Positions 968 through 23,128 of a stretch of 25,428 bases of DNA are shown piece after piece. Numbering within the stretch: the first letter of the stretch is position 1; each line of letters opens with the position of its first letter. The DNA is from a virus. Made by a program: the position numbers and the translations under genes. The notes beneath the pieces were generated by a model. That model worked only from the letters and a program-made list of their open reading frames with translations, was not told where the DNA came from and did no database searches. The DNA lies in IMG/VR virus record IMGVR_UViG_3300025132_003822, positions 1 through 25,428 of that record, one strand, 5' to 3'.

Positions 968-969
968 AA

Positions 970-1518: not shown

Positions 1519-1519
1519 A

Positions 1520-1966: not shown

Positions 1967-1981
1967 TAGTTAATAAAGGTT

Positions 1982-7439: not shown

Positions 7440-8821
7440 AGCTACCTGTAGCATTCAAAGATGTTAAAAATAAACTTGACAACGTAGGTTGTGGTTTTTG
7501 CTTGGCTAAATGGAGTCAGGTTACTATGCACCTACATAATGGACTTACCCATTCCTGTCACCACCCAGCTCCTCATAAAATACCATTAAGAGAAATAGAA
7601 CATAATCCTACTGCGTTACATAATACCCGTCATAAGAAAAGACAGAGAATGGCTATGCTTAAGGGCAAAAGACCTAAAGAGTGCGATTACTGTTGGAACG
7701 TAGAAGATAACTCAGATAGATTTTCAGATAGAGTTCTCAAATCATCTGAGCCATGGTCTATGAATCATTTTGACGATATAGTATCTAAACCATGGAATAC
7801 CGATTATAATCCTAAGTACGTAGAAGTATCTTTTTCTAATACTTGTAATTTTAAATGCTCTTATTGTGGTCCTTTATTTTCTTCTAAATGGATGGATGAA
7901 GTAAGATCTAAAGGTCCTTACCCAACTGATGATAAATTCGGTAGATTAGATACTCTAGAAGAAAAAGGTCATATACCTTATTTACAATCAGAATATAATC
8001 CATATGTAGAAGCCTTTTGGAGATGGTGGCCTGAACTATATACTGATTTAGATACTTTTAGGATTACTGGAGGAGAGCCTTTACTGTCTAAAGATACTTG
8101 GAAATTGTTAGATTTTATCATAGAATCTCCTGAACCTAATCGCAATCTTAAACTATCAGTAAATACAAATTTAGGTATACCCGATAATTTATTTGATAGG
8201 TTTGTAGAAAAAGTAAGTAAAATTATAGAACAAGAAAGAGTTAAAGAGTTTATAATATTTACCTCAGTAGATGGTTGGGGAGAACAAGCTGAATATATAC
8301 GTAACGGATTAGTATTTAATAAATTTTGGGATAACGTCAATACTTTACTTGATAAGCTACCAAGTGTTACAGTAGTATTAATGTCTACTTATAATATGTT
8401 TTCTCCATTTACTTATAATAAATTAATTGAAGGAGTATATAAATTAAAGAAAGAATATGCAAACGACTATAGATATTGGAAGCATGCTATACATTTAGAT
8501 ACATCATACTTAAGGTATCCTCATCATCAGACAGTACAATTATTAGAGAGTAACCATAAAGAACTTATAAGATCGAATGCTGAACTTATGTACTTTAAAA
8601 GCTCTCCAGTCTTTAATTTCAATCAATTAGGATTTACTACTATAGAGATCAATAAAATGAAAAGAATTTATGATTGGTCTAAATCTAACATAGATTCTAA
8701 AAAATTAAAATTAGAAAGAAATAATTTAGTTAAGTTTGTAGATGAACACGATAAAAGAAGAGGTACTAATTTTTTAAATACGTTTCCTGAGTTAGAAGAA
8801 TTTTATTATGATAATAAGTAG
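7436..8821 (+). CDS. Radical SAM protein with N-terminal twitch/SPASM-like region, copy A1
   Basis: This 461-aa protein carries the radical SAM CX3CX2C motif CNFKCSYC (C137, C141, C144), preceded by a beta strand (YVEVSFSNT), and the SAM-contacting TGGEP (211-215). The N-terminal 100 residues hold a second Cys set: C19 and C22 in GCGFCLAKW, C41 in SCHH, and C83/C86 in ECDYCW. This fits an auxiliary iron-sulfur cluster of the twitch/SPASM type placed before the radical SAM barrel. From memory, database entries for phages name a similar family 'twitch domain-containing radical SAM protein'. The C-terminus ends with DKRRGTNFLNTFPELEEFY, a motif shared by all six paralogues here. The substrate is unknown. 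The gene overlaps its LamG-like neighbour by 14 nt. Confidence 0.9.
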   Translation: MKLPVAFKDVKNKLDNVGCGFCLAKWSQVTMHLHNGLTHSCHHPAPHKIPLREIEHNPTALHNTRHKKRQRMAMLKGKRPKECDYCWNVEDNSDRFSDRVLKSSEPWSMNHFDDIVSKPWNTDYNPKYVEVSFSNTCNFKCSYCGPLFSSKWMDEVRSKGPYPTDDKFGRLDTLEEKGHIPYLQSEYNPYVEAFWRWWPELYTDLDTFRITGGEPLLSKDTWKLLDFIIESPEPNRNLKLSVNTNLGIPDNLFDRFVEKVSKIIEQERVKEFIIFTSVDGWGEQAEYIRNGLVFNKFWDNVNTLLDKLPSVTVVLMSTYNMFSPFTYNKLIEGVYKLKKEYANDYRYWKHAIHLDTSYLRYPHHQTVQLLESNHKELIRSNAELMYFKSSPVFNFNQLGFTTIEINKMKRIYDWSKSNIDSKKLKLERNNLVKFVDEHDKRRGTNFLNTFPELEEFYYDNK

Positions 8822-9455
8822 AGGTGAACCTTGGATACTTTGGCCTGAAAAATATAGTCACGGTTTATGTAAAGACGATTTAAATAAATCTTTACAAGGT
8901 GATAACGATTTTACTATAGGTATTAACTTTAAACTTCTATCAAAAGGTCCCGATAAACGAACTATCTTTTCAAGATTACCTAATTATTTAGGTTTAGATA
9001 TAGAAAAAGAAAATAATAACGTTTTATTTATTTGTAAGACTATAAAAGAAGGAAAAGAAAAAGCATATTACGAATTTTCTAATTTCAGTTTAAAAAATTC
9101 TTTTTATAGATTTTACATTAGGTATAATAAAAAAGAAAATTTTTTAGATTTAAGTATAGATGAAAAAATTATATTTGAAATTAATTTTGATAAAAATGAA
9201 AAGTTATTACAATCTCAAGATTCTCATATAATATTCGGCTCAGGTAATTTTCCTCATAACAATTTTAATTTAAATTATAGCGAATTAGATATCGATCAAT
9301 TTTTCGTGAGTAGAAAATTTTTAGATTTAAAAAAATATACTACTGAAGAATTATTAAATCTATCATGCGTAGGAATTTACGATTTTAAAAATAAAACTGA
9401 TTATCAAATTTGGGACTATACTAATAATTATAATCTCATAGGCAAAATACTTTAA
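8808..9455 (+). CDS. Free-standing LamG-like (concanavalin-fold) protein
   Basis: This 215-aa protein has the strand order of a LamG-like jellyroll. FTIGINFKLL (35-44) and RTIFSRLPNYLGLDI (51-65) come first, then RFYIRYNKKENFLDLSID. The family-typical end is ELDIDQFFVSRKFLDL plus a YTTEELLNL helix, followed by a YDFKN...IWDYTNNYNLIGKIL segment. The same end pattern occurs in the inserts of the two GT7-like enzymes upstream, so it is plausibly a third, unlinked copy of that module. No catalytic domain, signal peptide or membrane segment is seen. It overlaps the preceding radical SAM gene by 14 nt and shares one base with the next, so it belongs to the same unit. Glycan binding is likely from the fold but not proven. 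Confidence 0.65.
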   Translation: MIISRGEPWILWPEKYSHGLCKDDLNKSLQGDNDFTIGINFKLLSKGPDKRTIFSRLPNYLGLDIEKENNNVLFICKTIKEGKEKAYYEFSNFSLKNSFYRFYIRYNKKENFLDLSIDEKIIFEINFDKNEKLLQSQDSHIIFGSGNFPHNNFNLNYSELDIDQFFVSRKFLDLKKYTTEELLNLSCVGIYDFKNKTDYQIWDYTNNYNLIGKIL

Positions 9456-10825
9456 TGCAAGAATATTATTCCATAAGAGAAAAGTTAAATGAAATAAGCC
9501 CTAGCTTCTGTATAGCTAAATGGGCACAGTTAACTTTATATCTACATACAGGATTTAATCACTCTTGCCACCATCCTACACCTCATAAAATACCATTAGA
9601 AGAAGTACTAGCAAATCCTAAAGCATTACATAATACTAAGCATAAGAAGTCTCAAATGAGAAAAATGCTGAGAGGCGAAAGACCGGCAGAATGTGAATAC
9701 TGTTGGAAGATAGAAGACTTAGGAAAAGATTACATAAGCGATAGAGTTTATAAATCAGCTCATGAAATGTCTACAGTTAAATTAGAAGAGATAGTAGAAA
9801 AAAAATCTGCAGATATTGAACCTAGTTATCTTGAGATTAGCTTTAGTAGTGCATGCCAACTAAAATGTGCTTACTGTTCACCAGATATATCAACTTCTTG
9901 GATGCAAGAGATAGAACAATTTGGTGGTTATCCTACTTCTACTAACTTTAATAATTTAGATTGGTTTAAGTCACAAAATAAAATGCCTTACAAGTATAGT
10001 GAAGATAATCCTTATGTAGAAGCTTTCTGGAAATGGTGGCCTGAGTTAGCTCCTAATCTACATACTTTAAGATTAACTGGAGGAGAACCTTTGCTGTCTA
10101 AAGATGTATGGAAAGTTATAGATAAAGTTATAGAAAATCCTAATCCTAAATTAGTATTTTGCGTCAATACAAATTTATTAGTCCCAGATGCTTTAATAGA
10201 TAAGTTAATCTATAAGCTTAACGAACTAGATGGTAAAGTAAAAGAAATACAAATTTTCTCTAGCGGTGAAGCAACCGGTTTAGCTAATGAATATATTAGA
10301 TTCGGTACTAATTACAAAAAATGGCAAAAGAACTTTGAAAGAGTATTAAATGAAACTGAAAACGTTTTAGTAGCTAATATGACTACAGTAAATTTAACCA
10401 GTGTAGGTACTTACTGTGATTTTTTAAGATACTTATTAAGTTTAAGAAAAATTCATAATAAAACAGTTAACTTTGATAAAGTACAATTTATGAGTAATTA
10501 TTTAAGGTATCCTGAGTTTTTAGCTATAACTAATTTAGATAATGAAAGTAAAGATAGATTCAAATTATCAGTAGATGAACTTATAAAAGAACGTAAACCT
10601 GACTCAGGTTTAGATAGAGATGAATGCTTAACATACTCACAGATCGATCAGTTAAATAGATTGGTAGATCATATGTATAATAATACCGACAGTGGTGATA
10701 AACTAAAGTTAAATCGTAAAGATTTTTTTAATTTTACGCAAGAATACGATAAAAGGAGAGGAACTTCTTTCGAAGAAGCTTTTCCTGATTTAAATGAATT
10801 TTATAAGTTATGTCAAGAAGCCTAG
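9455..10825 (+). CDS. Radical SAM protein with N-terminal twitch/SPASM-like region, copy A2
   Basis: This 456-aa protein is the closest relative of copy A1. The radical SAM motif is CQLKCAYC (C134, C138, C141) and the SAM motif TGGEP is at 208-212. N-terminal cluster residues are C19 (PSFCIAKW), C38 (SCHH) and C80/C83 (ECEYCW). It shares with A1 the block NPYVEAFWKWWPEL and an identical GGEPLLSKD, also visible at the DNA level. The C-terminus has DKRRGTSFEEAFPDLNEFY. The radical SAM signature has Gln instead of the Asn seen in the five other copies, which is harmless for cluster binding. It overlaps the next gene by 16 nt. It probably generates a 5'-deoxyadenosyl radical; the substrate is unknown. 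Confidence 0.9.
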   Translation: MQEYYSIREKLNEISPSFCIAKWAQLTLYLHTGFNHSCHHPTPHKIPLEEVLANPKALHNTKHKKSQMRKMLRGERPAECEYCWKIEDLGKDYISDRVYKSAHEMSTVKLEEIVEKKSADIEPSYLEISFSSACQLKCAYCSPDISTSWMQEIEQFGGYPTSTNFNNLDWFKSQNKMPYKYSEDNPYVEAFWKWWPELAPNLHTLRLTGGEPLLSKDVWKVIDKVIENPNPKLVFCVNTNLLVPDALIDKLIYKLNELDGKVKEIQIFSSGEATGLANEYIRFGTNYKKWQKNFERVLNETENVLVANMTTVNLTSVGTYCDFLRYLLSLRKIHNKTVNFDKVQFMSNYLRYPEFLAITNLDNESKDRFKLSVDELIKERKPDSGLDRDECLTYSQIDQLNRLVDHMYNNTDSGDKLKLNRKDFFNFTQEYDKRRGTSFEEAFPDLNEFYKLCQEA

Positions 10826-12147
10826 AAGAAACTAAAAAATTAATCGATTCGATTTCTCCATCGTTTTGCGCAGCTAAATGGTATAATGTATCTATATGGT
10901 TAGGAAACGGTAGAACAGCATCATGTCACCACCCATTAGCCCATCATATTCCTAGAATGGAGCTACAAAATAATCCATCAGCATTACATAATACAGAATT
11001 TAAAAAAACTGCTAGAAAAGAAATGCTTGAAGGCACTAGACCTAAAGAATGTGGGTACTGTTGGAGAGTAGAAGATGCTGCTAAAGGAAAAAAAGATGTA
11101 TATAGTGATAGAGTTTATCAATCTCATAGATATACTACTGATGAGATAGTAAAGATTAAAGATAAGCCTTGGGACCATAACGTTATTCCTAAAACTGTAG
11201 AACTTGCTTTTGATAATTTATGTAATCTAGCGTGTAGTTACTGTAATGCTGAGTTTAGTTCTACATGGGCTAGAGATATTAATAAAAATGGTCCTTATAA
11301 GGGTATGGAAACAAAAGGAGGCCATACTTTTGCTAATAATGGTTCTCATGCAATGCCTTTTGGTCATAAGAATGAAGATAATGAATTTATAAAAAAGTTT
11401 TTCGAATGGTTTCCTTCAATTAGAGGAGGCCTACAGGAACTAAGAGTATCAGGAGGAGAGCCTGCTAGATCCCCATCTTTTTGGAAACTACTAGAAATGT
11501 GTAATAACGATAATTTTGATTTCGCAGTAAATAGTAATTTAATAATGCCTGAAGATAGATTAAATACTCTTATAGAATCAGCTAAAAAATTTAAAGCTTT
11601 TGATATCTATACTAGTGCGGAAGCATTTGGTAAAAATCAAGAATTTGTTAGAGATGGATTTGATTGGAAAATATGGGAAAGAAATATTCTTAAACTTTTA
11701 AAAGCTCCTCAAATAAGAGCAGTTCATGTTATGATGACTTTAAGTGCGTTAAGTGTATGGACTACTGATAAATTTTTAGAAAAAATAATAAAATGGAGAA
11801 AGAAAGCTAGAACTAAAGAAATGCTTTATATGTCTGTTAATATTTTAAGATTTCCTTCATTCCAAAGTATGAATATTTTACCTCAGGAAGTCAAGGATAA
11901 ATTAGCTTATAATATAGAAAAAGTTCTTATTCCATCTAAACCATGGATGCATGAATGGGAAATAAATCACTACAATAGATTATTAGTATATTTAAGGAAC
12001 GTTGATAAATCGTACGAAGATCAAGATACTTATGAAAATAAAGCAAACGACTTTAAAAACTTTACAGTACAATATGCACGTAGACGAGAAAAACCTATAG
12101 ATAAATTTATGCCAGTTGAGTTTAATGACTGGTTTAATACAATATAA
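10810..12147 (+). CDS. Radical SAM protein with N-terminal twitch/SPASM-like region, copy A3
   Basis: This 445-aa protein has the radical SAM motif CNLACSYC (C138, C142, C145), SGGEP (214-218), and N-terminal C20 (PSFCAAKW), C39 (SCHH) and C81/C84 (ECGYCW). It shares the group A hallmarks SCHHP, NPSALHNT and RPKECxYCW. It differs from A1 and A2 around the SAM motif (ARSPSFWK instead of LLSKDxWK) and in its C-terminal motif (YARRREKPIDKFMP). It starts inside the end of copy A2 (16-nt overlap) with no Shine-Dalgarno sequence, so coupled translation is likely. A single base separates its stop codon from the ATG of copy B1. Confidence 0.9.
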   Translation: MSRSLEETKKLIDSISPSFCAAKWYNVSIWLGNGRTASCHHPLAHHIPRMELQNNPSALHNTEFKKTARKEMLEGTRPKECGYCWRVEDAAKGKKDVYSDRVYQSHRYTTDEIVKIKDKPWDHNVIPKTVELAFDNLCNLACSYCNAEFSSTWARDINKNGPYKGMETKGGHTFANNGSHAMPFGHKNEDNEFIKKFFEWFPSIRGGLQELRVSGGEPARSPSFWKLLEMCNNDNFDFAVNSNLIMPEDRLNTLIESAKKFKAFDIYTSAEAFGKNQEFVRDGFDWKIWERNILKLLKAPQIRAVHVMMTLSALSVWTTDKFLEKIIKWRKKARTKEMLYMSVNILRFPSFQSMNILPQEVKDKLAYNIEKVLIPSKPWMHEWEINHYNRLLVYLRNVDKSYEDQDTYENKANDFKNFTVQYARRREKPIDKFMPVEFNDWFNTI

Positions 12148-12148
12148 T

Positions 12149-13429
12149 ATGTCAAATACTAAACTAGAATCTCCAGGGGATAAAATTAGCCCTACATTTT
12201 GTATACTACCTTGGATACATCTTAATACTTGGCCTAATGGTAACGTATATCCTTGTTGTCTAACTGATTATAGAGAAGAGTTAGGTAATATGAAAGATAA
12301 TACTTTAGAGGAGTTATGGAATGTACCTAGAATGAAAGAAATAAGAAGAGATATGCTTCTTGGTAATAAGCATGATAATTGTAGAAAATGTTATCAGCAA
12401 GAAGAAAATGGTTTAGATAGTACTAGAACTTCATCTAATAGGTGGTATAAACATCATATACCTAATATTATAGAGCAGACTAAGCCTGACGGTACTAATG
12501 AAAGATTCGAACTTTTATACTGGGATTTTAGGTTTTCTAATCTTTGTAATTTTAAATGTAGAATGTGCGGTTCTTATTTAAGTTCAAAATGGTTTGAAGA
12601 TGAAATAAAAATCTTTGGAGGTAGTAATATTCCTAAAGCTATAATAAACGTAAATGATTATAGTAAAAAAGATATTAAATTTTATCTTAATGAATTTATG
12701 GAGGACGTAGAAGAAATTTATTTTGCAGGAGGAGAACCTTTAATAATGGACGAACATTATTATATTTTAGAAAAATTAATCGAAATAGGTCATACTGATT
12801 TAAGGATAAGATATAATACTAATTTAGGATATTTAAAATTTAAAAAATGGGATAACTTAAAACTTTGGGAACCATTTAGAAAGGTAGATAATGCCAACGT
12901 AGCTATATTTGCGTCTATAGATGGTATAAACGAAGTAGCTGAATATAAAAGAAAAGGAACTAAATGGCCTAAAGTAGAAGCTAATATTAAAAAATGTATA
13001 GATGAAGGATTAAACTTTCATGTGAGTTGTACTACTAGTATAATGAATGTACTTCACATACCTACTTTTATAGATAGAATGATAGAATTAGGATTAGATA
13101 TATTTCATATTCAGCTTAACAATATTTTAACTAGTCCGTATTACTATAATATTAATATACTTCCTATATCGTTAAAAAATAAAGTTAGAATACTTTATAA
13201 TAAACATTTAGAAAAATTTAAAGGTAGAGAGAAAGAAGAGCTAGCTAAAAAATATGATAGTATCTTTAAATTTATGGATGAAACTCCTAAAGATAATGTA
13301 GATAAGATTTATAAGCAGTTAAAAAACTTTACTGATAAACTTGATAAAGGTAGAGATGAAAACTTCCTAGAAATATACCCTTACTATTCAGACTGGTATA
13401 ACAGTATAGGTAAAAGTAAAGCAATTTAG
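12149..13429 (+). CDS. Radical SAM protein with N-terminal twitch/SPASM-like region, copy B1
   Basis: I place the start at the ATG at 12149, one base after the previous stop codon, rather than at the in-frame TTG 33 nt upstream. The protein then begins MSNTKLESPGDKISPTFC and has 426 residues. The N-terminal cluster residues are C18 (FCILPWIHL), C36/C37 (GNVYPCC) and C78/C81 (CRKC). The radical SAM motif is CNFKCRMC (C133, C137, C140) and AGGEP lies at 193-197. The C-terminal motif reads LDKGRDENFLEIYPYYSDWY. Unlike group A it has the classical Cys-Cys pair, so it is closer to ordinary SPASM-type proteins. Substrate unknown. Confidence 0.9.
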   Translation: MSNTKLESPGDKISPTFCILPWIHLNTWPNGNVYPCCLTDYREELGNMKDNTLEELWNVPRMKEIRRDMLLGNKHDNCRKCYQQEENGLDSTRTSSNRWYKHHIPNIIEQTKPDGTNERFELLYWDFRFSNLCNFKCRMCGSYLSSKWFEDEIKIFGGSNIPKAIINVNDYSKKDIKFYLNEFMEDVEEIYFAGGEPLIMDEHYYILEKLIEIGHTDLRIRYNTNLGYLKFKKWDNLKLWEPFRKVDNANVAIFASIDGINEVAEYKRKGTKWPKVEANIKKCIDEGLNFHVSCTTSIMNVLHIPTFIDRMIELGLDIFHIQLNNILTSPYYYNINILPISLKNKVRILYNKHLEKFKGREKEELAKKYDSIFKFMDETPKDNVDKIYKQLKNFTDKLDKGRDENFLEIYPYYSDWYNSIGKSKAI

Positions 13430-14685
13430 TGGAACAACAAAGATTTATATGTGATTTACCATGGAAGCATTTAAGTGTACACCCTCACGGAAACTGCTCG
13501 ATATGCTGTGTGGCAGATCATAGTTATTTAGGTTCTCAAGCTTTAGTGGGTAAAGACGAAACTTTAAACGTTTTAAACGTATCAACCGATTCTATTGAAA
13601 GCATAGTTAACTCTGACAGTTATAAGACTATTAGAAAAGAAATGCTTGAAGGTAAAAAACCTTTAGCTTGTAAGACTTGTTGGGATGTAGAAGAATCAGG
13701 AGGAAGATCTAAAAGAGTTAGAGATTCAGTATTCGATGTTGACTTTGACGAAATAACTAAACCTGACGGCAGTATTGAAGTTGACCTATCTAATATAGAG
13801 TTAAGATTAGGTAACTTCTGTAACTTAAAATGCCGTTCTTGTAATGCAGAGTCTTCTACCTCTTGGATAGATGATTATTATAAACTCAAAGATAAGGTAC
13901 CATTACCTAGTAACTTTGATAAGCTTAAAAAAAGTAAATGGACTAATTACGACTGGGTAGAAGATACAGAGTTTTATAATAGACTTATTAAAAATAGTCC
14001 TAATATTAGACAGTTACATATAAGTGGAGGAGAACCTTTTTTGGTTCATAAGCATTTTTATTTATTAGAAAAATTAGTCAAAGATAATTTAGCTAAAGAT
14101 ATAGATATTTTTTATATTACTAATGGTAATTATAATTTTAAAAAACTTATACCAGTATTAGATAAATTAAATAATTTTCGCAAAGTATATATTAGTTTTA
14201 GTTTAGACGATATTTGGGATAGAAATGCTTATATAAGAAAATTAAGTAATTTTAAATTAACTATAAATAATATAAAAAATTTTCTTAATAATTATAATTT
14301 TTACTATACTATTACTCAAACTATAAGCACATATAATTTTCTTTACTGTGAAGAACTAAGTCAATACTTATTAAAAGAAGGACTTTATAATTTAGAAGGA
14401 ACAGGAAAAATTCCTCGTATTATTCCGAACCATGTTCATGCACCAGCTTATCAAAATGCTACAGTAATTCCTAAAAAGGTTAGACAGAAAAAATTAGAAA
14501 GTATAAAAAATTTAGTTCATAAGGAAATATATAATGATCTTCACGGCAGGTATTATAACGCTCCTGATAATAACGAACTAAGTAATTTTTTTAAAGTTAC
14601 TAATGCAGTAGATAAAGTAAGAAAAGAAAAAATGCAAGACTATTTTCCTGAATTATTTAACGTTCTTAAATCTGAATTAATATGA
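13429..14685 (+). CDS. Radical SAM protein with N-terminal twitch/SPASM-like region, copy B2
   Basis: Translation probably starts at the GTG that shares one base with the preceding TAG (TAGTG), giving MEQQRFICDLPWKHLSVHP at once, in register with copy B1. The 418-aa protein has N-terminal C8, the cluster C23/C26/C27 (NCSICC) and C81/C84 (ACKTCW). The radical SAM motif is CNLKCRSC (C131, C135, C138) and SGGEP is at 199-203. The third Cys in NCSICC is extra relative to the other copies. The end carries the shared C-terminal motif (DKVRKEKMQDYFPELF). It overlaps copy B3 by 4 nt. Confidence 0.9.
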   Translation: MEQQRFICDLPWKHLSVHPHGNCSICCVADHSYLGSQALVGKDETLNVLNVSTDSIESIVNSDSYKTIRKEMLEGKKPLACKTCWDVEESGGRSKRVRDSVFDVDFDEITKPDGSIEVDLSNIELRLGNFCNLKCRSCNAESSTSWIDDYYKLKDKVPLPSNFDKLKKSKWTNYDWVEDTEFYNRLIKNSPNIRQLHISGGEPFLVHKHFYLLEKLVKDNLAKDIDIFYITNGNYNFKKLIPVLDKLNNFRKVYISFSLDDIWDRNAYIRKLSNFKLTINNIKNFLNNYNFYYTITQTISTYNFLYCEELSQYLLKEGLYNLEGTGKIPRIIPNHVHAPAYQNATVIPKKVRQKKLESIKNLVHKEIYNDLHGRYYNAPDNNELSNFFKVTNAVDKVRKEKMQDYFPELFNVLKSELI

Positions 14686-15911
14686 GTTTAAGATGCGTAC
14701 ATATAGAGAGTGGTTTAAGAGTTACTAATAACGGTGCTATACAACCTTGCTGTTACTTTGATCCTAGCGTAAATTATAAAGACGATAAAGGTTTAGACTT
14801 AAACGTAAATAGTACGTCATTACTAAAGGCTTTTGATAGCCCTACTTTATCTAAATTAAGAGAACAGTTTAGCAGAGGTGAAAAACCAAAAGGTTGTAGT
14901 AGATGCTGGAAAGAAGAAGATGCTGGTATAACTAGTAAAAGAATAAGAGATAATAAATCTTATGATTTTAGAGAAAGTACCAACACTGTAAGGTTCTTAG
15001 AACTTAATTTAGGTAATACTTGTAATTTTGCTTGTAGGATGTGCGGTATAACTGCTAGTATTAAATGGTATAAGGAAGCTAAAAAACTTCACTATCCTCA
15101 TATAAGTAATGAAGAGTATGATAAGTACGTAAAAACTATGTATAAGAGCTATGACGATGATAGCTTATTTTGGGAATCAGTATATGATGTAGCTCCTACA
15201 TTAGAAATGATAGATATGTACGGAGGTGAGCCTTTTTTAGTTAAAAAACAGTGGGAATTTCTTAAAGAATTAATTAACTTAGGATATAGTAAAAATATAA
15301 GGTTGCATTTTAATACTAACGGTTCTATATTTAAGGAAGAATATTTTAAAATACTTGATAAGTTTAAATTTGTAAATATTAGCTTTAGTATTGACGGCAT
15401 AGAAGATAAATTTAACTATATAAGGCACCATGGAGACTGGAATCAAGTATATAATAATATGAATAAATGGGCTCAATATTCTAAAGGAAGAGAACATTGG
15501 TTATTAGATGTTTGTATTACTATTTCTATACTTAATATTTTAGATATAGGAGAATTGAATGAGTTTTTTAAAGAAAATTTTCCTCAAATGCCTTTATTTT
15601 TAAATCAAGTAAGCTGGCCGAGCTACTTCTCAGTAAAATGCATACCTAATATCTACAAAGGTAAAATTACTGAAAAAATAATACAATATGTCAATAATAT
15701 AGGCAAAAGTACTGATGAATGGCCTGATGCATATAATATAAAAGAACAAATTCTCAATACAGTAGAATTTATGAATACTAATAAAGGTACTGAAGATGAC
15801 TTTTTAAAGTTTTATAAAGTTAATGATTTATTAGATGAATCCAGAAGTCAAAACTTTCAAAAAACCTTTCCTGATCTTTATTCAATTTTTAAACCAACAA
15901 CAAAAGTTTAA
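14682..15911 (+). CDS. Radical SAM protein with N-terminal twitch/SPASM-like region, copy B3
   Basis: This 409-aa protein starts at an ATGA overlap with copy B2. The N-terminus is the shortest of the six: RCVHIESGLRVTNNG with C5, then QPCC (C23/C24) and GCSRCW (C72/C75). It lacks the FCxxxW context seen in the other copies. The radical SAM motif is CNFACRMC (C114, C118, C121), with YGGEP at 180-184. The C-terminal motif is LLDESRSQNFQKTFPDLYSIF. All cluster residues needed for a radical SAM site plus an auxiliary site are kept, so it looks active. It is the last gene of the accessory block; a 3-nt gap follows. Confidence 0.9.
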   Translation: MSLRCVHIESGLRVTNNGAIQPCCYFDPSVNYKDDKGLDLNVNSTSLLKAFDSPTLSKLREQFSRGEKPKGCSRCWKEEDAGITSKRIRDNKSYDFRESTNTVRFLELNLGNTCNFACRMCGITASIKWYKEAKKLHYPHISNEEYDKYVKTMYKSYDDDSLFWESVYDVAPTLEMIDMYGGEPFLVKKQWEFLKELINLGYSKNIRLHFNTNGSIFKEEYFKILDKFKFVNISFSIDGIEDKFNYIRHHGDWNQVYNNMNKWAQYSKGREHWLLDVCITISILNILDIGELNEFFKENFPQMPLFLNQVSWPSYFSVKCIPNIYKGKITEKIIQYVNNIGKSTDEWPDAYNIKEQILNTVEFMNTNKGTEDDFLKFYKVNDLLDESRSQNFQKTFPDLYSIFKPTTKV

Positions 15912-15914
15912 GTT

Positions 15915-16169
15915 ATGAAACAAAATATAAGTCTAACAAAAGAAGAACTAGCACTATTGAAAGCATTAGACAAAGATGCTAATACAATAATAAAAGAATT
16001 TGGTAATATTAATATATCTCAACTAGAATTAGATAAAAGAAAAGATAATGCTCTTAAATATTATGAAGCATTGAAAAAAAAGAAATCTGAAGTTTCTATA
16101 GCACTACAGAATAAGTACGGTAGAGGAAATATAGATATAGTTACAGGTATATTCACCCCTGCAGGTTAG
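15915..16169 (+). CDS. Small helical protein (84 aa) between the accessory block and tail module
   Basis: The protein is almost entirely predicted helix and coiled coil, with many Lys, Glu and Leu residues (LTKEELALLKALDKDANTII, YYEALKKKKSEV). It ends in the turn-rich segment NKYGRGNIDIVTGIFTPAG. I recall similar small proteins ending in KYGxGxIDxxTGxFTP in marine phages, without known function. It starts 3 nt after the last radical SAM gene and has no cysteine. It may be an ordinary phage gene that happens to end the transcription unit. A role as a radical SAM substrate cannot be excluded but has no positive evidence. Confidence 0.65.
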   Translation: MKQNISLTKEELALLKALDKDANTIIKEFGNINISQLELDKRKDNALKYYEALKKKKSEVSIALQNKYGRGNIDIVTGIFTPAG

Positions 16170-16187: not shown

Positions 16188-16197
16188 TATTTATAAG
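16188..16197 (+). promoter_or_regulatory. TATTTATAAG element, candidate phage promoter
   Basis: This lies 18 nt after the small helical gene and is one of six near-identical elements (consensus gATATTTATaA) found only in the gaps of the tail module. It is preceded by TTGA. The distance to the sheath ATG is about 90 nt, so the second copy at 16241 is better placed for that gene. Promoter function is inferred from recurrence and position. The opposite strand reads TATAAATA, the T4 late-promoter octamer. Confidence 0.4.
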
Positions 16198-16240
16198 TAA
16201 TCCAAAAAAATATCTAATTAGGTTTTTGTATATATTTAGA

Positions 16241-16250
16241 TATTTATTAA
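16241..16250 (+). promoter_or_regulatory. TATTTATTAA element, candidate promoter of tail sheath gene
   Basis: A second copy of the recurrent element (AGATATTTATTAA), 37 nt before the tail sheath ATG. The 108-nt gap 16170-16277 is otherwise AT-rich with no hairpin I could support and no Shine-Dalgarno sequence before the ATG. Confidence 0.45.
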
Positions 16251-16277
16251 TGTATAAAACAATCTAATTAACTAAAC

Positions 16278-18032
16278 ATGGCAGAAACATTAATCTCCCC
16301 AGGTGTATTAACCAGAGAAAATGATATTTCTTTTATCGCCCCCGCAGCTGTTCAAGCTGGTGCTGCTATTTTAGGGCCAACAGTCAAAGGTCCTGTAGAA
16401 GATCCTACCTTAGTAACCTCGTACGGTCAATATCAGCGTCTTTTCGGGACAACATTCGAATCTGGTTCAACAAAACAAGAATACCTTACTTCTCTTGCTG
16501 TAAAATCATATTTTACTCAAGGAGGAAACTCAGTAATAGTAACTAGAGTAGTATCTGGTTCATTTTCTGGTGCAGCAAGTTCAACGATTTCAACTATCAC
16601 AGGTTCATTAACTAATCCTTTTACTCTTGAAACTTTAGGTAAAGGCGCTATCTTTAATAACGCTACAGCTTCAGGAGACCAAGGTTTACATAATACCGAT
16701 GGTTCATTAAAATCAGGTTCAGCGGATAATTTAAGGTATGAAATATCAAATGTACAAAACGCTACAGGTACATTTTCTCTATTAATACGTAGAGGTGACG
16801 ATAATACCAAGAATAAAATTGTAATAGAAACTTTTAACGATCTATCTTTAGACCCTAACTCAAGTAACTATATAGAAAGAGTTGTAGGTAATCAGACAAG
16901 AACAAAAACTACCGACGGGGACGGTAATGTATACGTTCAGACTTCTGGAGAGTTCGTAAACCAATCTAACTTTGTTAGAATTTCTGCAGTTAATTTACCT
17001 ACACTTAATTATGTAGGTACTGATGGCTTAACTGTAGGTAGTGATGCTAATAATATTTCATTTTCAGGCTCATTACCGATAGCTCAATCTGGTTCATTTA
17101 GTGGAGCTACAGGAGCAAACGGAAAAGCAGGAGATAAATATAATGATGAAATTACAAATACTAATACTCAAGGGCTAGTAGGTGCTAATTACGCAGATAG
17201 TATTTCATTATTAGGCAACAAAGATGAGTATGAATTTAATATTATTTCAGCACCTGGATTAATATACGATTTCGGTACTCATAAAACTCAATTAGATTCA
17301 ATTATATCACTAGCTGAAACTAGAGGGGACTGTATTGCAGTTCTAGACCTAGAACAATATGGGGCTACCGTAAGTAATACAACTACTGTAGCTGCAACAG
17401 TTAATACATCGTATGCTGCTGCATATTGGCCATGGCTTCAAACTCAATCAGCTACAGGCAAAAACGTTTGGATACCAGCATCTACAGTTATCCCAGGAGT
17501 ATATGCATTTACCGATAGTGCTGCTGCACCTTGGTTCGCACCTGCAGGTTTAACTAGAGGAGGTATTGGAGACGTTATTCAAGCCGAAAGAAAATTAACT
17601 AGAACTCAAAGAGATACTCTATATAATGCAAATGTTAACCCAATTGCTACATTCCCAGGAGCAGGTATTTCAGTATTCGGTCAAAAGACCTTACAGAAGA
17701 AAAAATCTGCACTTGATAGAGTAAATGTTAGAAGATTGTTAATTAATCTTAAGAAATTTGTAAACGATGTATCAAGAACTTTAGTATTCGAACAAAATAC
17801 TAACGTAACTCGTAATAATTTCTTATCACAAGTTAATCCATTCTTGGAATCAGTAGTTCAAAGACAAGGTCTTTTTGCTTTCAGAGTGGTAATGGACGAC
17901 ACAAACAATACAGCCGACACTATTGATCGTAATCAATTAATAGGTCAGATCTTTATTCAACCAGCTAAAACAGTTGAATTCATAGTTCTTGACTTTACAA
18001 TTGAACCTACTGGAGCAACGTTTACGGCGTAA
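16278..18032 (+). CDS. Tail sheath protein (T4 gp18-like)
   Basis: This 584-aa protein opens with ISPGVLTRENDISF, then GAAILGPTVKGPVEDPTLV and YGQYQRLFG, the standard N-terminal pattern of contractile tail sheath proteins. The C-terminal part, VNVRRLLINLKKFVNDVSRT, NPFLESVVQRQGLFAFRV and the closing IFIQPAKTVEFIVLDFTIEP, matches the conserved sheath domain that forms the inter-subunit mesh. Residues of about 95-300 are the variable, Ser/Gly/Asn-rich surface insertion. Sheath subunits form rings around the tail tube and contract on infection. It has its own upstream gap with promoter-like elements and is followed by the tail tube gene, as in T4. Confidence 0.95.
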   Translation: MAETLISPGVLTRENDISFIAPAAVQAGAAILGPTVKGPVEDPTLVTSYGQYQRLFGTTFESGSTKQEYLTSLAVKSYFTQGGNSVIVTRVVSGSFSGAASSTISTITGSLTNPFTLETLGKGAIFNNATASGDQGLHNTDGSLKSGSADNLRYEISNVQNATGTFSLLIRRGDDNTKNKIVIETFNDLSLDPNSSNYIERVVGNQTRTKTTDGDGNVYVQTSGEFVNQSNFVRISAVNLPTLNYVGTDGLTVGSDANNISFSGSLPIAQSGSFSGATGANGKAGDKYNDEITNTNTQGLVGANYADSISLLGNKDEYEFNIISAPGLIYDFGTHKTQLDSIISLAETRGDCIAVLDLEQYGATVSNTTTVAATVNTSYAAAYWPWLQTQSATGKNVWIPASTVIPGVYAFTDSAAAPWFAPAGLTRGGIGDVIQAERKLTRTQRDTLYNANVNPIATFPGAGISVFGQKTLQKKKSALDRVNVRRLLINLKKFVNDVSRTLVFEQNTNVTRNNFLSQVNPFLESVVQRQGLFAFRVVMDDTNNTADTIDRNQLIGQIFIQPAKTVEFIVLDFTIEPTGATFTA

Positions 18033-18045
18033 TTTTAAAAGTAGA

Positions 18046-18055
18046 TATTTATAAT
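18046..18055 (+). promoter_or_regulatory. TATTTATAAT element, candidate promoter of tail tube gene
   Basis: This copy, GATATTTATAATAAA in context, lies in the 37-nt gap between the sheath and tube genes, with 24 nt from its first base to the tube ATG. If it acts as a -10-like element, the leader would be only about ten bases, which fits the absence of a Shine-Dalgarno sequence. Confidence 0.5.
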
Positions 18056-18069
18056 AAAGCAAAAATAAC

Positions 18070-18555
18070 ATGGCAGTATTAGACGCAACCGAGATAATGT
18101 TTAGAGCCTTCGAACCGAAGGTACAAAACAGATTTATAATGTTCATCGATGCTATTCCAGCATTTATGATCAAGCAAGTTTCTGCTCCTTCTTTTGAAGA
18201 TGAATCAATTAAACTTGATCATATAAACACTTATAGAAAAATTCGTGGGAAGAGAGAGTGGCAAACAATGGATATGACATTGTATGACCCAGTAACTCCA
18301 TCTGGAGCCCAAAAAGTAATGGACTGGGCGAGACTTTCATACGAATCAGTAACTGGTAGAGCTGGTTACTCTGATTTCTATAAGAAAGACTTAACATTGA
18401 ATGTATTAGGACCTGTAGGAGATATGATATCTGAATGGGTAATAAAAGGAGCATTCATTACAAGTATGGCACAAGGAGACTTTGATTGGGCTAATTCTGA
18501 GGTTGCTGAATTAACAATCACAGTAGATATGGACTATTGCGTACTTAACTACTAA
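18070..18555 (+). CDS. Tail tube protein (T4 gp19-like)
   Basis: This 161-aa protein has the length and motifs of contractile-tail tube proteins: EPKVQNRFIMFIDAIPAFMI at residues of about 16-35, then YRKIRGKREWQTMDMTLYDP, a mid-region GAQKVMDWARL, and a C-terminal ITSMAQGDFDWANSEVAEL beta strand set. The protein stacks as hexameric rings forming the channel for DNA ejection inside the sheath. The gene directly follows the sheath gene, as in T4-related phages, and is closed by a strong terminator. The start ATG has A-rich sequence before it and no Shine-Dalgarno. Confidence 0.93.
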   Translation: MAVLDATEIMFRAFEPKVQNRFIMFIDAIPAFMIKQVSAPSFEDESIKLDHINTYRKIRGKREWQTMDMTLYDPVTPSGAQKVMDWARLSYESVTGRAGYSDFYKKDLTLNVLGPVGDMISEWVIKGAFITSMAQGDFDWANSEVAELTITVDMDYCVLNY

Positions 18556-18576
18556 AATCTGCCACATATATTTAAG

Positions 18577-18601
18577 ACCCGGTTTTATACCGGGTTTTTT
18601 T
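18577..18601 (+). terminator. Rho-independent terminator after tail tube gene
   Basis: A 6-bp GC-rich stem, ACCCGG (18577-18582) pairing with CCGGGT (18590-18595), encloses a 7-nt loop and is followed by a run of T residues (18595-18601). The U-tract lies only on the + strand side, confirming the transcription direction. It would cap the highly expressed sheath-tube transcript. Confidence 0.9.
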
Positions 18602-18637
18602 ATGAATTAAGGTTGTTTAATAAATTTTGAGTTCGTA

Positions 18638-18647
18638 TATTTATTAA
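18638..18647 (+). promoter_or_regulatory. TATTTATTAA element, candidate promoter of gp26-like gene
   Basis: This element lies between the terminator and the gp26-like gene, 36 nt before its ATG. It is less perfect than the copies at 18046, 19669 and 22785. A partial second match (TTTTATAATAAAA) lies closer to the ATG, so the exact element is uncertain. Its place directly after a strong terminator makes a promoter here likely. Confidence 0.45.
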
Positions 18648-18673
18648 AAAGAACTAGTTTTATAATAAAATTT

Positions 18674-19417
18674 ATGAGTACAGAAAACAATTTTCCTACA
18701 GAAGTAGTAGATTTACCTTCTAAAGGCCTTCTTTATACCGAAGATTCACCTCTAAAATCCGGAACTATAGAGATGAAGTATATGACAGCTAAAGAAGAAG
18801 ACATTTTAACTAATCAAAACTTTATCGAAAAAGGTATAGTTATTGATAAATTACTCCAAGCACTTATCGTTGATAAAAAAATTAATTATAATGAATTATT
18901 AATTGGAGATAAAAACGCATTATTAGTAGCTGCAAGAATATTAGGTTATGGAGCTGACTACGAATTTGTTTACCAAGGTGAAAAAGTAAAAATTGACTTA
19001 ACAACTATTGAAAATAAACCTTTTGATGAAAAATTAGTAAAAGACGGTAAAAATGAATTTAAGTTTACTTTACCTACTACTAAAAACGAATTAACTTTTA
19101 AATTTCTTACTCACGGAGATGAGAAAAAAGTAGATCAAGAAATAAAAGGATTAAAAAAAGTAAATAAAGATGCTTCACCAGAACTTTCTACTAGATTAAA
19201 GTATTTAATTACCGGAGTAGATGGTAATGTTGAAACTGCATTTATTAGAAAATTTGTTGATAATCAATTTTTAGCCAGAGATTCTAGAGCTTTTAGAAAA
19301 CATTTAGCTGAAATACAGCCAGATATAGATTTAAAGTTCTATCCAGAAAATGGCCCAGAGGAGGGGGTAGACATCCCGTTGGGAGTAACATTTCTTTGGC
19401 CTGACTTTGGAGTATAA
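18674..19417 (+). CDS. Baseplate/tail assembly protein, T4 gp26-like
   Basis: This 247-aa protein starts with VVDLPSKGLLYTEDSPLKSG, then MKYMTAKEEDILTNQNFIEKG, VIDKLLQALIVD and LIGDKNALLVAARILGYGADY. This series matches the T4 baseplate protein family that includes gp26 (Pfam T4_baseplate). In T4, gp26 belongs to the baseplate hub assembly pathway. The gene lies between the tail tube and tape measure genes and overlaps a small downstream gene by 11 nt. That is the usual place of a tail assembly chaperone pair in other long-tailed phages, so a chaperone role is also possible. Cytosolic, no membrane segment. Confidence 0.8.
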   Translation: MSTENNFPTEVVDLPSKGLLYTEDSPLKSGTIEMKYMTAKEEDILTNQNFIEKGIVIDKLLQALIVDKKINYNELLIGDKNALLVAARILGYGADYEFVYQGEKVKIDLTTIENKPFDEKLVKDGKNEFKFTLPTTKNELTFKFLTHGDEKKVDQEIKGLKKVNKDASPELSTRLKYLITGVDGNVETAFIRKFVDNQFLARDSRAFRKHLAEIQPDIDLKFYPENGPEEGVDIPLGVTFLWPDFGV

Positions 19418-19658
19418 AGTAAATTTATTTTCCCAAATTCACGAAATAGTATTTCACGGTAAAGGAGGGTATGATTACGAAACAGTTTATAACATGCCTG
19501 TTTGGTTACGTACTTTTACCTTTAAAAAACTCAACGAGTATTATGAAAAAGAAGCCGAAGCTGCTCGAAAAGCAAGCGGCAAATCTAAACTAGGAAGTAA
19601 AGTTCCTAAAGGACCTGCTATCAAAGGTGCAGATTATACTGCTAAGGCCCCTAATTAA
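19407..19658 (+). CDS. Small tail assembly protein overlapping gp26-like gene (gp51/chaperone-like position)
   Basis: This 83-aa protein probably starts at a TTG inside the end of the gp26-like gene (11-nt overlap), giving MEYKVNLFSQIHEIVFHGKG. The segment YETVYNMPVWLRTFTFKKLNEYYEKEAEAA resembles the short helical C-terminal part of tail assembly chaperones, where a P-x-W-L-R-x-F motif is common. The tail is Lys/Gly-rich (KSKLGSKVPKGPAIKGAD). It lies in the +1 frame relative to gp26. Either reinitiation or, less likely, frameshifting could couple the two. The stop codon lies within the loop of a hairpin. Confidence 0.6.
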   Translation: MEYKVNLFSQIHEIVFHGKGGYDYETVYNMPVWLRTFTFKKLNEYYEKEAEAARKASGKSKLGSKVPKGPAIKGADYTAKAPN

Positions 19659-19665
19659 GGGCCTT
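19644..19665 (+). terminator. Hairpin overlapping the stop codon, weak terminator candidate
   Basis: AAGGCCC (19644-19650) pairs with GGGCCTT (19659-19665) in a 7-bp stem. The 8-nt loop includes the stop codon of the small tail gene. Only a short, broken T-run follows, so intrinsic termination would be weak; it could instead protect the upstream mRNA end. The promoter-like element at 19669 starts 3 bases after it. Confidence 0.6.
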
Positions 19666-19668
19666 TCC

Positions 19669-19678
19669 TATTTATAAT
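19669..19678 (+). promoter_or_regulatory. TATTTATAAT element, candidate promoter of tape measure gene
   Basis: This is a perfect copy of the recurrent element (CTATTTATAATAAAA in context) in the 33-nt gap before the tape measure gene, 23 nt from its GTG start. It sits directly after a hairpin, forming a compact end-of-one, start-of-next arrangement. Confidence 0.5.
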
Positions 19679-19691
19679 AAAATAAATACCT

Positions 19692-22600
19692 GTGACCCCA
19701 GAAGAATTAAAACGGTTAAAAGAAGCTCAAGCAATTGAAAAAGAGAGACTGCGTATTGAACGTGAACGTCAAGGTCTTACTGCATCTGATGCTTATCTAT
19801 CAGACTCCATTGATCAAGCTAAATCTTTAACTTCATTTTCTAGACAACTTACCGAAGACCTCAAAGAGCAGGTTGGAATGCGAAGAGGCATTGGTGAAGA
19901 AAATCGTAAACTTGTTAGTTTAGCAAGACAGCTTCAAGACTCAGCATCTCAAGTAACTGCAGAAATAGGCGCAGAAGCAGCTGTATCTAAACAGCTAGCT
20001 AAAGATAGAGAGATTCAAAGACAAATACAGATTGAACTTGAAAAAGCTCAAGGGGAACTAGCAGCTGAACAGTTCAAAAAAGCAAAAATGCTTGCAGGTA
20101 TAGATAAACAAAGAGCTGATATACTTGCTGACCTTAATAAAGCACAAAGAGAGTTAAATGTAGGACAAGATAAAGCTAAAAGGCTTGGTGAATCTGAAAA
20201 TGAGGGATCTAAAATAGCTGCTCAATTTCAAGAGAAACAAAACGACAAACAAAAGCAGATAGTTGATAGTCTTGAAGAAAAATTAAAAAAAGTAGAAGGT
20301 ATCTATGATTCTGAGAAACAAAGTGTAGATGCTGCTACCGATAAAGTATCTACTCTAGAAAATCAATTTGGTATAGCTACCGATTTAGTTGGTATTCGTG
20401 AAGCTGAATTAGATACACAGCGAAAAATTACCCAAGCTATGGGTGTTACCGGAGCAGTAGTAACTGGTTTAGGCGGTATAATGCAGAGACTTGGTCTTAG
20501 ATCAGGTATATTTAACCAAACCGTTGAAGATACTGCTGAAGCTATGAGAAAAGTAGCTGCTGAAACTGAACAAGCAGGTGGTGAGGTAAACAGATTAGAG
20601 ACCATGATGGTGGGTATTAAAACTCTTATCAATGGTACTGAAGATGGAGTTGGTGGTTTAAAAAGAGCATTAGGAGATCCTGCTACTATCTCTCTAGCAA
20701 TATTAGATGCATTTTTTAAGATTGATCAAGCAGCTGCTGACTTACAGCAAAAAATAGGAGTTAATACTTCAAATTTTGTTAATCAAAATAATGCATTAGC
20801 TACTAGTGTACAGCAGATGGAACTTATGTCCGATCTTGCTGATAAGACAGGAAGGAATGTAGCTGCTTTATTTACCTCTCAGCAAATAGGAGAAGCTGCT
20901 GAACTTACAAATACATTAGGATTATCTGCCGGTCAAGCCGGTGAACTTGCAATTATAGCTCAAGAAGCTGGAAGATCAGTTGGAGAAACTACTGATAACG
21001 TATTTGAACAAGTAGATGCTTTTAATAAAGTAAATAGAACAGCGATAAGTGGTCAAGCAGTACTTCGAGATATAGGAGATGCTTCCTTTGATATTAAAGC
21101 ATCGTTTTTAGCTTTTCCTGACGGTATAGCAGAAGCAGCTACAGCTGCTAAAAGATTAGGTATGAATCTTGACGATGTAAATAGTATCGCAGATTCATTA
21201 ATGGACTTTGAATCTTCTATTGAAGCAGAATTAGAAGCCCAGCTACTTACCGGCAAACAAATTAATATGGCTAAAGCTAGAGAGTTTGCTCTATCAAATG
21301 ATTTAGCTGGTTTAAGTAATGAAATATTCCAAAACTCAGTAGATGTAGCTGAATATGGTAAAATGAACCGTATACAGCAACAAGCCTTAGCCAAGTCAAT
21401 GGGTATTACTACCGAACAAATGGCTAAAGCTGCTTATTTTAGAGGTCTAGAAAATAATATGTCTGATGAAGCACTTAAAAATGCAACAGGTCTTACTAGA
21501 GAAGAATATGAAAGAATGTCAGCCCAAGATGCTATGGCAACAGCAATGGGTAAATTAGCTCAAGCATTTGCTCCTATTTTAGATATAGTAGGTACTTTAG
21601 CAAATACTATAGCACCTCTAGTAGGAGTTTTAGGTAAAATAGTCGGATTTGTGATTGGTCTACCAGGAGGAATCGGTAAAATTACTGTTGCTGCAATTAT
21701 TGCTGCTAAAGCATTTGGAGGTATAGGAAATGCTATTGGCGCTGCTGGTAAAGGTATAGGTAGTTTAGCTAGAGGAGTTGTAGACATAGGTAAAAATGCC
21801 GTAGGTGCTGGAAAATCTCTTTTAAAGATGGTTACTAGTCCTAAAAAAGGAATAAAAGATTTAAGAGAAGGATTTAAGAAATTCAGTTCTATGCTCAAAG
21901 AAGGTTATAGTGCAACTGGAGCTAAGGATCCTACTAAAAAATTAACCGAAGCTGGTAAAAAAGTTTCTAAAGATACATCTACAGGAGCTAAAGGAACTAG
22001 CAGTTTAACTAATACTATACAAAAAATTGATGCTAAAAAATTACTTGCTGGAGCAGCTGCAATGGTAATCGCTGCAGGAGCAGTATTTATATTTGCTAAA
22101 GCAACTCAAGAATTTATGGAAGTAAGTTGGTCAGCTGTAGGTAAAGCTATAGTAGGATTAGCTGCATTAGTACTTGCAGTAGGTGCAATTGGAGCAATCA
22201 TGATGTCTGGAGTAGGAGCAGTAGCTATTTTAGCTGGAGCAGCTGCAATGGTTGTTATGGCAGGAGCATTATACGTGCTAGGTAAAGCTATGCAACTATT
22301 CAACGATGTAAATTATGAAGGTATAGGACAACTAGGAGTATCGTTTATTTCTCTCGGAGCAGGATTAGCCGCATTAGGATTCTCTATTTTAGCAGCAGTT
22401 CCTGCTATAGCTATTTTAGGAACATTAGCATTATTAGGACCAGGTCTTGCATTGGCAGGAATGGGTATCGAAAGAATGGCTCAAGGAGTAGGAGCATTAG
22501 CCTCAGCTCTTAAAGAATTAGAAACGGAAAAATTAGAAAATCTATCAGACTTTACGGTTAAAGCTGCAGTAGCAGGAATAGCAGCAAGTGGAATAGGAGC

Positions 22601-22775
22601 TTTAGGTGAAATGGTTAGTAACTTAACTGGTGGCGGAGATAGCGAAAATCAAGAACTTTTAAATAAAGTAGATACTTTGATAGCTGCTGTAGAACAAGAC
22701 AGAGTTACTAAAGTATATATGAACGGTAATCAAATGTCTATGCAAATGGTTCAAGAAAATCCTAGACAAGGATAA
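19692..22775 (+). CDS. Tape measure protein
   Basis: This 1027-aa protein, the largest in the window, starts at a GTG. The first 240 residues are charged and form long predicted coiled coils (RLKEAQAIEKERLRIERERQ). Residues 240-600 are helical, with many Ala and Gln. From about 620 on there are several long hydrophobic Gly/Ala/Ile stretches (IAPLVGVLGKIVGFVIGLP and others), including two exact-length 62-aa repeats. This mix is typical of tape measure proteins, which set tail length and leave the tail with the DNA. At roughly 1.5 angstrom per residue the tail would be about 150 nm; that is family-based arithmetic, not measured. It follows the chaperone-like pair, as expected. Confidence 0.9.
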   Translation: MTPEELKRLKEAQAIEKERLRIERERQGLTASDAYLSDSIDQAKSLTSFSRQLTEDLKEQVGMRRGIGEENRKLVSLARQLQDSASQVTAEIGAEAAVSKQLAKDREIQRQIQIELEKAQGELAAEQFKKAKMLAGIDKQRADILADLNKAQRELNVGQDKAKRLGESENEGSKIAAQFQEKQNDKQKQIVDSLEEKLKKVEGIYDSEKQSVDAATDKVSTLENQFGIATDLVGIREAELDTQRKITQAMGVTGAVVTGLGGIMQRLGLRSGIFNQTVEDTAEAMRKVAAETEQAGGEVNRLETMMVGIKTLINGTEDGVGGLKRALGDPATISLAILDAFFKIDQAAADLQQKIGVNTSNFVNQNNALATSVQQMELMSDLADKTGRNVAALFTSQQIGEAAELTNTLGLSAGQAGELAIIAQEAGRSVGETTDNVFEQVDAFNKVNRTAISGQAVLRDIGDASFDIKASFLAFPDGIAEAATAAKRLGMNLDDVNSIADSLMDFESSIEAELEAQLLTGKQINMAKAREFALSNDLAGLSNEIFQNSVDVAEYGKMNRIQQQALAKSMGITTEQMAKAAYFRGLENNMSDEALKNATGLTREEYERMSAQDAMATAMGKLAQAFAPILDIVGTLANTIAPLVGVLGKIVGFVIGLPGGIGKITVAAIIAAKAFGGIGNAIGAAGKGIGSLARGVVDIGKNAVGAGKSLLKMVTSPKKGIKDLREGFKKFSSMLKEGYSATGAKDPTKKLTEAGKKVSKDTSTGAKGTSSLTNTIQKIDAKKLLAGAAAMVIAAGAVFIFAKATQEFMEVSWSAVGKAIVGLAALVLAVGAIGAIMMSGVGAVAILAGAAAMVVMAGALYVLGKAMQLFNDVNYEGIGQLGVSFISLGAGLAALGFSILAAVPAIAILGTLALLGPGLALAGMGIERMAQGVGALASALKELETEKLENLSDFTVKAAVAGIAASGIGALGEMVSNLTGGGDSENQELLNKVDTLIAAVEQDRVTKVYMNGNQMSMQMVQENPRQG
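22047..22418 (+). repeat. Two tandem 186-bp (62-aa) repeats inside the tape measure gene
   Basis: Unit 1 (22047-22232, residues 786-847) and unit 2 (22233-22418, residues 848-909) both begin with an identical 20-nt sequence coding for AGAAAMV. They are in frame and equal in length. The protein units share AGAAAMVxxAGAxxxxxKAxQxF followed by a Gly/Ala/Ile-rich half ending in AxAIL or AVAIL. A weaker third start (GTLALLGPGLALAGMG) follows. Each unit is hydrophobic enough to form membrane-type helices. Confidence 0.8.
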
Positions 22776-22784
22776 AAACAACGA

Positions 22785-22794
22785 TATTTATAAT
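22785..22794 (+). promoter_or_regulatory. TATTTATAAT element, candidate promoter of the baseplate genes
   Basis: This is a perfect copy (CGATATTTATAATAAAT in context) in the 41-nt gap after the tape measure gene, 32 nt before the ATG of the next gene. No hairpin is seen in this gap. It probably serves the downstream run starting with the 103-aa gene. Confidence 0.5.
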
Positions 22795-22816: not shown

Positions 22817-23128
22817 ATGGGAATACTAGAAAAATTTGAAGCTGGAGATCCAAAAGCTTCTGGACAAAGTGCTCAGAAAACTCCCGGTGTACCGCCTGCA
22901 ACTAGAGCAGCTGCGCTGAATACTTCTCAAATGCACGCTCAAGGAAATATAGGTGATGAAGCACCTGGCTTTGGTAAAGTTACTAAAGGATTTATAGCTA
23001 CTAATCAAGAAGAAGCTACTAATCTTAACTTTAAGCAATCAGGACCTTATTCAGAACTAGATCTAGACGGCAAAAAGCCTGAAGGAGGAACTTACAGAGA
23101 AAACGCACCCGAAGGAGCATCTTTCTAA
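22817..23128 (+). CDS. Hypothetical protein (103 aa), tail module
   Basis: The protein is polar and low in predicted structure, rich in Gly, Ala, Pro, Gln and Asn, with no cysteine or membrane segment. The opening MGILEKFEAGD resembles the opening of the next protein (MGIIREFNKGS), which may mark a shared docking or assembly segment. It lies between the tape measure and a baseplate protein, 5 nt before the latter, so it is probably a small baseplate or tube component. I do not recognise a family. Confidence 0.7.
   Translation: MGILEKFEAGDPKASGQSAQKTPGVPPATRAAALNTSQMHAQGNIGDEAPGFGKVTKGFIATNQEEATNLNFKQSGPYSELDLDGKKPEGGTYRENAPEGASF

Follow-up and report, generated by a model that had tools for sequence, protein, structure and literature searches.

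Tail module of the window and its recurrent element

The DNA analysed here (the window) is a 25,428-nucleotide stretch from a virus, a fragment of an incomplete genome, and its tail module carries genes for the tail sheath, tail tube, baseplate hub and tape measure and a small gene behind them (Table 1). Compared with Flavobacterium phage vB_FspM_immuto (hereafter immuto), the sheath protein shows 65% identity and the tube protein 75%; after immuto, the next relatives of the tube include Microcystis phage Mel-JY01 and Rhodothermus phage RM378. Far-T4 phages are widespread, and we treated the window as a fragment of one of them, kin of immuto. We place the group in Far-T4 because the paper on these phages (PMC4360716) deals with RM378.

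Every gap of the module larger than 30 nt (five gaps of 108, 37, 118, 33 and 41 nt) holds a TATTTATAAT-like element, and all six copies reported by an earlier reading of the sequence alone (the sequence-only reading) lie where that reading had placed them. Three copies are perfect, TATTTATAAG has one mismatch and the two TATTTATTAA copies have two mismatches each. The sequence-only reading counted four gene-proximal copies 23–37 nt before a start codon; the distances hold, but the number is five, the fifth being the copy at 16241 upstream of the sheath gene.

Table 1 Features of the tail module in the window. Distances to start codons are counted from the element's first base.
Feature	Position	Strand	Details
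Putative late-promoter element TATTTATAAG	16188..16197	+	5' member of the tandem pair before the sheath gene
Putative late-promoter element TATTTATTAA	16241..16250	+	Proximal copy before sheath; 37 nt to ATG 16278
Tail sheath gene	16278..18032	+	Behind the tandem elements; PHROG tail sheath E 4e-74
Putative late-promoter element, perfect	18046..18055	+	24 nt to tail tube ATG 18070
Tail tube gene	18070..18555	+	PHROG tail tube E 7e-24; 75% identity to immuto
Intrinsic terminator-like hairpin	18577..18602	+	3' of tail tube gene, 5' of the 18638 element
Putative host-type sigmaA-like promoter	18613..18643	+	TTG 18613-18615, 20-nt spacer, TATATTTA 18636-18643; overlaps late element
Putative late-promoter element TATTTATTAA	18638..18647	+	36 nt to hub ATG 18674; overlaps host-type -7 box
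Baseplate hub gene	18674..19417	+	PHROG baseplate hub E 1e-7
Terminator-like hairpin running into perfect putative late-promoter element	19644..19678	+	Hairpin 19644-19665, element 19669-19678; 23 nt to tape-measure GTG 19692; same layout in relatives L004 and L007
Tail tape-measure gene	19692..22775	+	PHROG tape measure E 3e-5; same position in immuto
Putative late-promoter element, perfect	22785..22794	+	32 nt to ATG 22817
Small gene after last element	22817..23128	+	No PHROG match; relative in L011

Counted on both strands, the perfect 10-mer occurs three times in the window, each time in a gap. The core TATTTATWA occurs seven times on the plus strand (six in gaps and one in coding sequence at 14059) and once on the minus strand. 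Dinucleotide-preserving shuffles of each gap gave a mean of 0.26 copies, and none of 20,000 such shuffles reached six copies or filled all five gaps. Searching the whole window with two mismatches allowed gave no excess (200 matches versus 199 expected), since approximate matches abound in AT-rich DNA; the signal therefore resides in the exact core and its location, and tests of the exact core were used in place of two-mismatch counts. A scan with the sigma70 consensus gave no excess (31 promoters versus 34 expected). The pattern in the window is genuine and far above chance.

The sequence-only reading had further noticed no copy at gene junctions in positions 1–16169. This absence tells little, as junctions in that part never exceed 15 nt. 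Directly 5' of the tail module, positions 2814–15911 form a gapless 13-kb cassette encoding a methyltransferase, a glycosyltransferase and at least six radical-SAM-type proteins (one with SPASM), none of whose junctions carries the element.

Conservation of the element in relatives

TATTTATW precedes the tail tube gene in all 39 distinct upstream regions of relatives (53–99% protein identity), with drifting spacing, and for the sheath gene 31 of 32 distinct relatives have the TATTTAT core upstream, again with shifts in spacing. The window copy at 16188 lies 53 nt 5' of that at 16241, and a sheath tandem pair with copies 53–66 bp apart is found in immuto and in relatives down to ~32% protein identity; one group of relatives at 52–57% protein identity has a single copy before the sheath. 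The upstream sheath copy lies directly 3' of a terminator-like hairpin in immuto and two relatives (L022 and L018). At the junction corresponding to the 22785 copy, TATTTATA is found in L011 and TATTTATAA in immuto; among more remote relatives, many hub genes instead carry TATTTATCA or ATATATGTATA.

Counts over whole genomes were made in immuto (160 kb) and in two further near-complete relatives of ~160 kb, G006 and G007, which were chosen because both carry the candidate sigma factor described below and for which gene calls came from a simple ORF caller. On the plus strand of immuto, 21 of 28 TATTTATWA copies are intergenic (1.3 expected), preceding the portal, sheath, tube and other genes; on the gene strand, the intergenic fractions are 20/28 in G006 and 26/28 in G007. 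The genes of G007 lie on the other strand, and the element switches strand with them. In all three genomes it sits 20–30 nt before tail and head genes. Upstream enrichment, which the sequence-only reading had proposed as a check, is thus strong in complete relatives, and the frequency inside genes, which it had named as the opposing outcome, is low.

The element keeps a narrow range of distances to the start codon (median 25, interquartile range 21–30), while its distance to the preceding stop codon varies widely (interquartile range 10–52). In 17 of 80 cases across four genomes, and in 16 of 33 long gaps (≥60 nt), a terminator-like hairpin separates the element from the previous gene, so that transcription must be restarted by something. 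The -7 element of F. johnsoniae ends 4–5 nt before the start site (PMC6847099); if the box were placed in the same way, starts would fall ~12 nt after the first base of the element.

Among the more distant phages, the structural part of Mel-JY01 has TATTTAT in 8 of 36 upstream regions versus 1.2 expected. In RM378 (42% G+C), TATTTAA was first spotted by eye upstream of genes and then tested genome-wide; 39 of 146 genes have it in the 60 nt before their start, versus 2.1 expected, and it is also the top 7-mer there. The genes lie on both strands, and TATTTAA is exactly 13 nt from the start codon in 10 cases and never nearer, which makes these sites likely promoters of leaderless or nearly leaderless mRNAs. 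Two unrelated Flavobacteriaceae phages of lower G+C, FCL-2 and phi14:2, showed no enrichment of the element. On these comparisons, the enrichment is not an effect of host or composition.

Early and putative late promoter classes in immuto

Word counting in the gaps of immuto returned the box of the element (the late box) and, separately, a longer early box. Sites of both classes were chosen by their boxes, so that the independent finding is the presence or absence of a -33 element. In all 22 aligned early sites, TTG stands at a constant spacing from TATNTTTAG (TTG-N20-TATNTTTAG). The 27 aligned late sites have no -33 signal, with information of at most about 0.3 bit everywhere upstream of -1, and their positions +7 to +12 are nearly all A/T, with the consensus ATAAA. 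With module borders drawn by hand from the annotation, the late element is found in 18 of 29 virion-module gaps versus 3 of 33 early-region gaps (P = 1e-5), and the early element in 18 of 33 early-region gaps versus 1 of 29 virion gaps. TATTTATW is also found in 7 of 32 gaps of the replication and metabolism genes, so the late class is not purely structural.

The immuto genome (L082-L084) has, mainly at 60–77 kb, ~20 near-identical early promoters of the form TTG-N20-TATNTTTAG(G/A)TAT; in most of them a conserved CAATAATTAAAA tail follows. The conserved block is longer than the host consensus requires, which suggests an added leader or activator site.

Some late sites combine features of both classes. 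Among 96 sites, 19 have TA in front of the core (TATATTTAT), and 6 of these 19 also have TTG at a spacer of 19–21. The window copy at 18638 is such a hybrid, with a spacer equal to that of the immuto early promoters. This hub-gene hybrid is conserved (window 18613–18647, immuto 149760, G006 61080, and G007 47510 in reverse-complement coordinates), and the baseplate-hub gene may be transcribed in both phases through it.

Comparison with host and T4 promoters

Bacteroidota housekeeping promoters consist of a -33 TTTG and a -7 TAnnTTTG (PMC6847099), and the phage early region uses a close version of them, TTG-N20-TATNTTTAG. If the element were a form of the host sigmaA -7 box TAnnTTTG, a phage specificity factor would be unneeded. 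Host promoters and the element do have an AT-rich -7 box and TATTTA in common, and the element shares TATTTA with the early -7 box of immuto as well; the hybrids, though a minority, are true ones, and the -33 element is weak in F. johnsoniae anyway (PMC6847099). However, the remaining 77 of the 96 sites lack the TA that TAnnTTT requires before TATTTAT, just 3 of these 77 have TTG at a spacer of 19–21, and the late copies have a conserved TAATAAA tail. Placed in register, TATTTATA deviates from the host consensus at two near-invariant positions (PMC6847099). Upstream regions of immuto, G006 and G007 are not enriched in TAHHTTTG, the early and late classes are split by module, and the two unrelated Flavobacteriaceae phages lack the enrichment. 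We therefore consider a host box to be an unlikely explanation. The fairly fixed distance to start codons would also suit an mRNA feature, such as an endonuclease processing site or a translation enhancer, and a review warns that some mapped T4 late 5' ends may be processed (PMC2988020). Yet terminator-like hairpins often precede the element, so that transcription needs a restart, and tight junctions lack the element, as do most early genes, which also need translating. RM378, moreover, keeps the core with a sharp minimum distance of 13 nt, and an mRNA feature in place of a promoter seems very improbable.

The T4 late consensus is TATAAATA, of which TATTTATA is the exact reverse complement. 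T4 late promoters are isolated 8-bp TATA boxes with no -35 element and AT-rich sequence downstream (PMC2988020); gp55 is the factor that reads them, and the clamp gp45 acts as their activator via gp33 (PMC2988020; PMC7892883). Likewise, the element is a short box of A and T alone at the -10 position, its 27 immuto sites show no conserved -35, the bases directly 3' of the box are AT-rich, and its many copies per genome precede virion genes (18/29 versus 3/33 gaps, as above). It differs in its sense core, which reads TATTTATA(A) in place of TATAAATA, and TATTTAA in RM378; the plus strand of immuto has 15 copies of TATAAATA, 7 of them intergenic, and 30 copies of TATTTATA, 24 of them intergenic. 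By analogy, the element works like a T4 late promoter in design, while strict membership of that class fails on sequence. The complementarity could mean that TATAAATA acts as a T4-type late promoter from the other strand and produces antisense transcripts, but the spacing varies little towards the downstream start and much towards the upstream stop, and the extra conserved bases (ATAAA) face the downstream gene. With few exceptions the genes share one strand, and the element in G007 flips along with the genes, so we give antisense transcription almost no credence.

That the element is a promoter is, by contrast with these alternatives, highly likely. The proposal of the sequence-only reading, a phage-specific and probably late promoter, is the best-supported one, since the element is enriched in relatives, is not a host housekeeping promoter and is not general in Flavobacteriaceae phages, and we hold it to be very likely. 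A fuller description, a Far-T4 late promoter with a single AT-only box [AC]TATTTATAATAAA at -10/-7 and no -35/-33 element, is the best explanation and a likely one. Very probably, the element is a start signal for late particle-building genes in this phage and its distant cousins; we infer both the start of transcription there and its lateness.

A candidate late sigma factor

The T4 late-sigma family phrog_234 gave one weak match in complete relatives, immuto gp118 (E 0.008), a protein annotated as hypothetical that is conserved across the clade and counts at least 600 relatives among viral contigs. Weak matches were found within the gp118 family to phrog_234 (14 of 35 members), to the sigma family phrog_1740 (7 of 35) and to Pfam Sigma70_r2 (22 of 35, best E 0.006). 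Comparison of the family with gp55 by hhalign was weak (probability 7.6%, E 0.0046), and a search of the PDB by sequence with the family profile found no sigma. No match was obtained to a second late-sigma family, phrog_12791, or, in a search run without a positive control, to T7-type RNA polymerase (PF00940).

The predicted structure of gp118 (mean pLDDT 77) aligns with T4 gp55 (7d7c_F) at Z 10.0 over 114 residues, although helical folds occasionally attain Z near 10 by chance and gp55 came near the top only after VIA-align realignment; plain Foldseek gave no E below 0.1, with a few sigmas among its top rows. The predicted fold also matches sigmaE (Z 9.4) and many sigma region-2 structures, and together with the weak Pfam matches it points to a sigma region 2 in the gp118 family. 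As with T4, complete relatives are thus predicted to encode a protein with a gp55-like sigma region 2, the likeness to gp55 (PDB 7d7c) lying in the predicted region-2 fold and in weak profile matches to the same PHROG. Family members have ~230–244 aa and a separate conserved C-terminal helical domain (model pLDDT 92) that gp55 lacks; sigmaE region 4 was the second match to this domain, at only Z 5.1, and no fold stood out. On these models, gp118 looks like a divergent member of the sigma70 family whose region 2 resembles gp55.

Homologues of gp118 are clear in Mel-JY01 (E 1.5e-46) and weak in RM378 (E 2.5e-4). The gp118 gene of immuto (78174–78872) lies 3' of an early-type promoter at 76191 and just 5' of a late element at 78885, and this placement, with an early promoter behind and a late element ahead, fits what a cascade needs. 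A gp118-type sigma was seen neither in the window, a fragment of an incomplete genome, nor in the incomplete contigs that encode the closest relatives of the tube, and the tube was missing from every incomplete contig with the sigma; the two occur together in complete or near-complete relatives only. The T4-type sliding clamp PF02916 gave no match in immuto, RM378, Mel-JY01, G006 and G007, in a search that had no T4 positive control and could miss divergent clamps. We infer that the gp118 family is probably the reader of the late element.

A proposed late system of Far-T4 phages

In the scheme that we propose, host sigmaA would first transcribe the early region from TTG-N20-TATNTTTAG promoters, which would yield a phage sigma of the gp118 family. 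This sigma would take the host sigma's place on core RNA polymerase, then read the TATTTAT box, directing the host RNA polymerase into virion genes from sites 20–30 nt before their start codons. Tail and head genes, or small groups of them, would each be started separately, often right behind the terminator of the preceding gene.

More tentatively, Far-T4 phages may have a late system of their own, in which a lineage-specific box (TATTTAT, or TATTTAA in RM378) accompanies the phages across such distant hosts as Flavobacterium, Rhodothermus and, reportedly, Microcystis and is read, without the sliding clamp that T4 late transcription needs, by a two-domain sigma, with a gp55-like region 2 and a C-terminal domain that is possibly a helix-turn-helix. 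In the study that defined the Far-T4 group, the T4 core transcription-control genes were undetectable and transcription was considered possibly unlike that of T4 (PMC4360716). The likely late promoter and the candidate late sigma, hitherto a hypothetical protein, would supply both halves of a testable answer on Far-T4 transcription, and a comparison with the clamp-dependent late transcription of T4 becomes possible. Late genes of uncultured relatives could be marked by eye through the element. We found no report of the element in a literature search that covered a minority of subscription papers.

RM378 encodes two proteins of interest in this respect. Its gp144 (L204 28329–28928) is annotated as a sigma factor and lies near the major head gene, and gp020 (L202 17032–17826) is a separate protein. 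The latter matches the gp118 family weakly, whereas gp144, a clear sigma, does not match it. This clearer second sigma could be the late factor of RM378.
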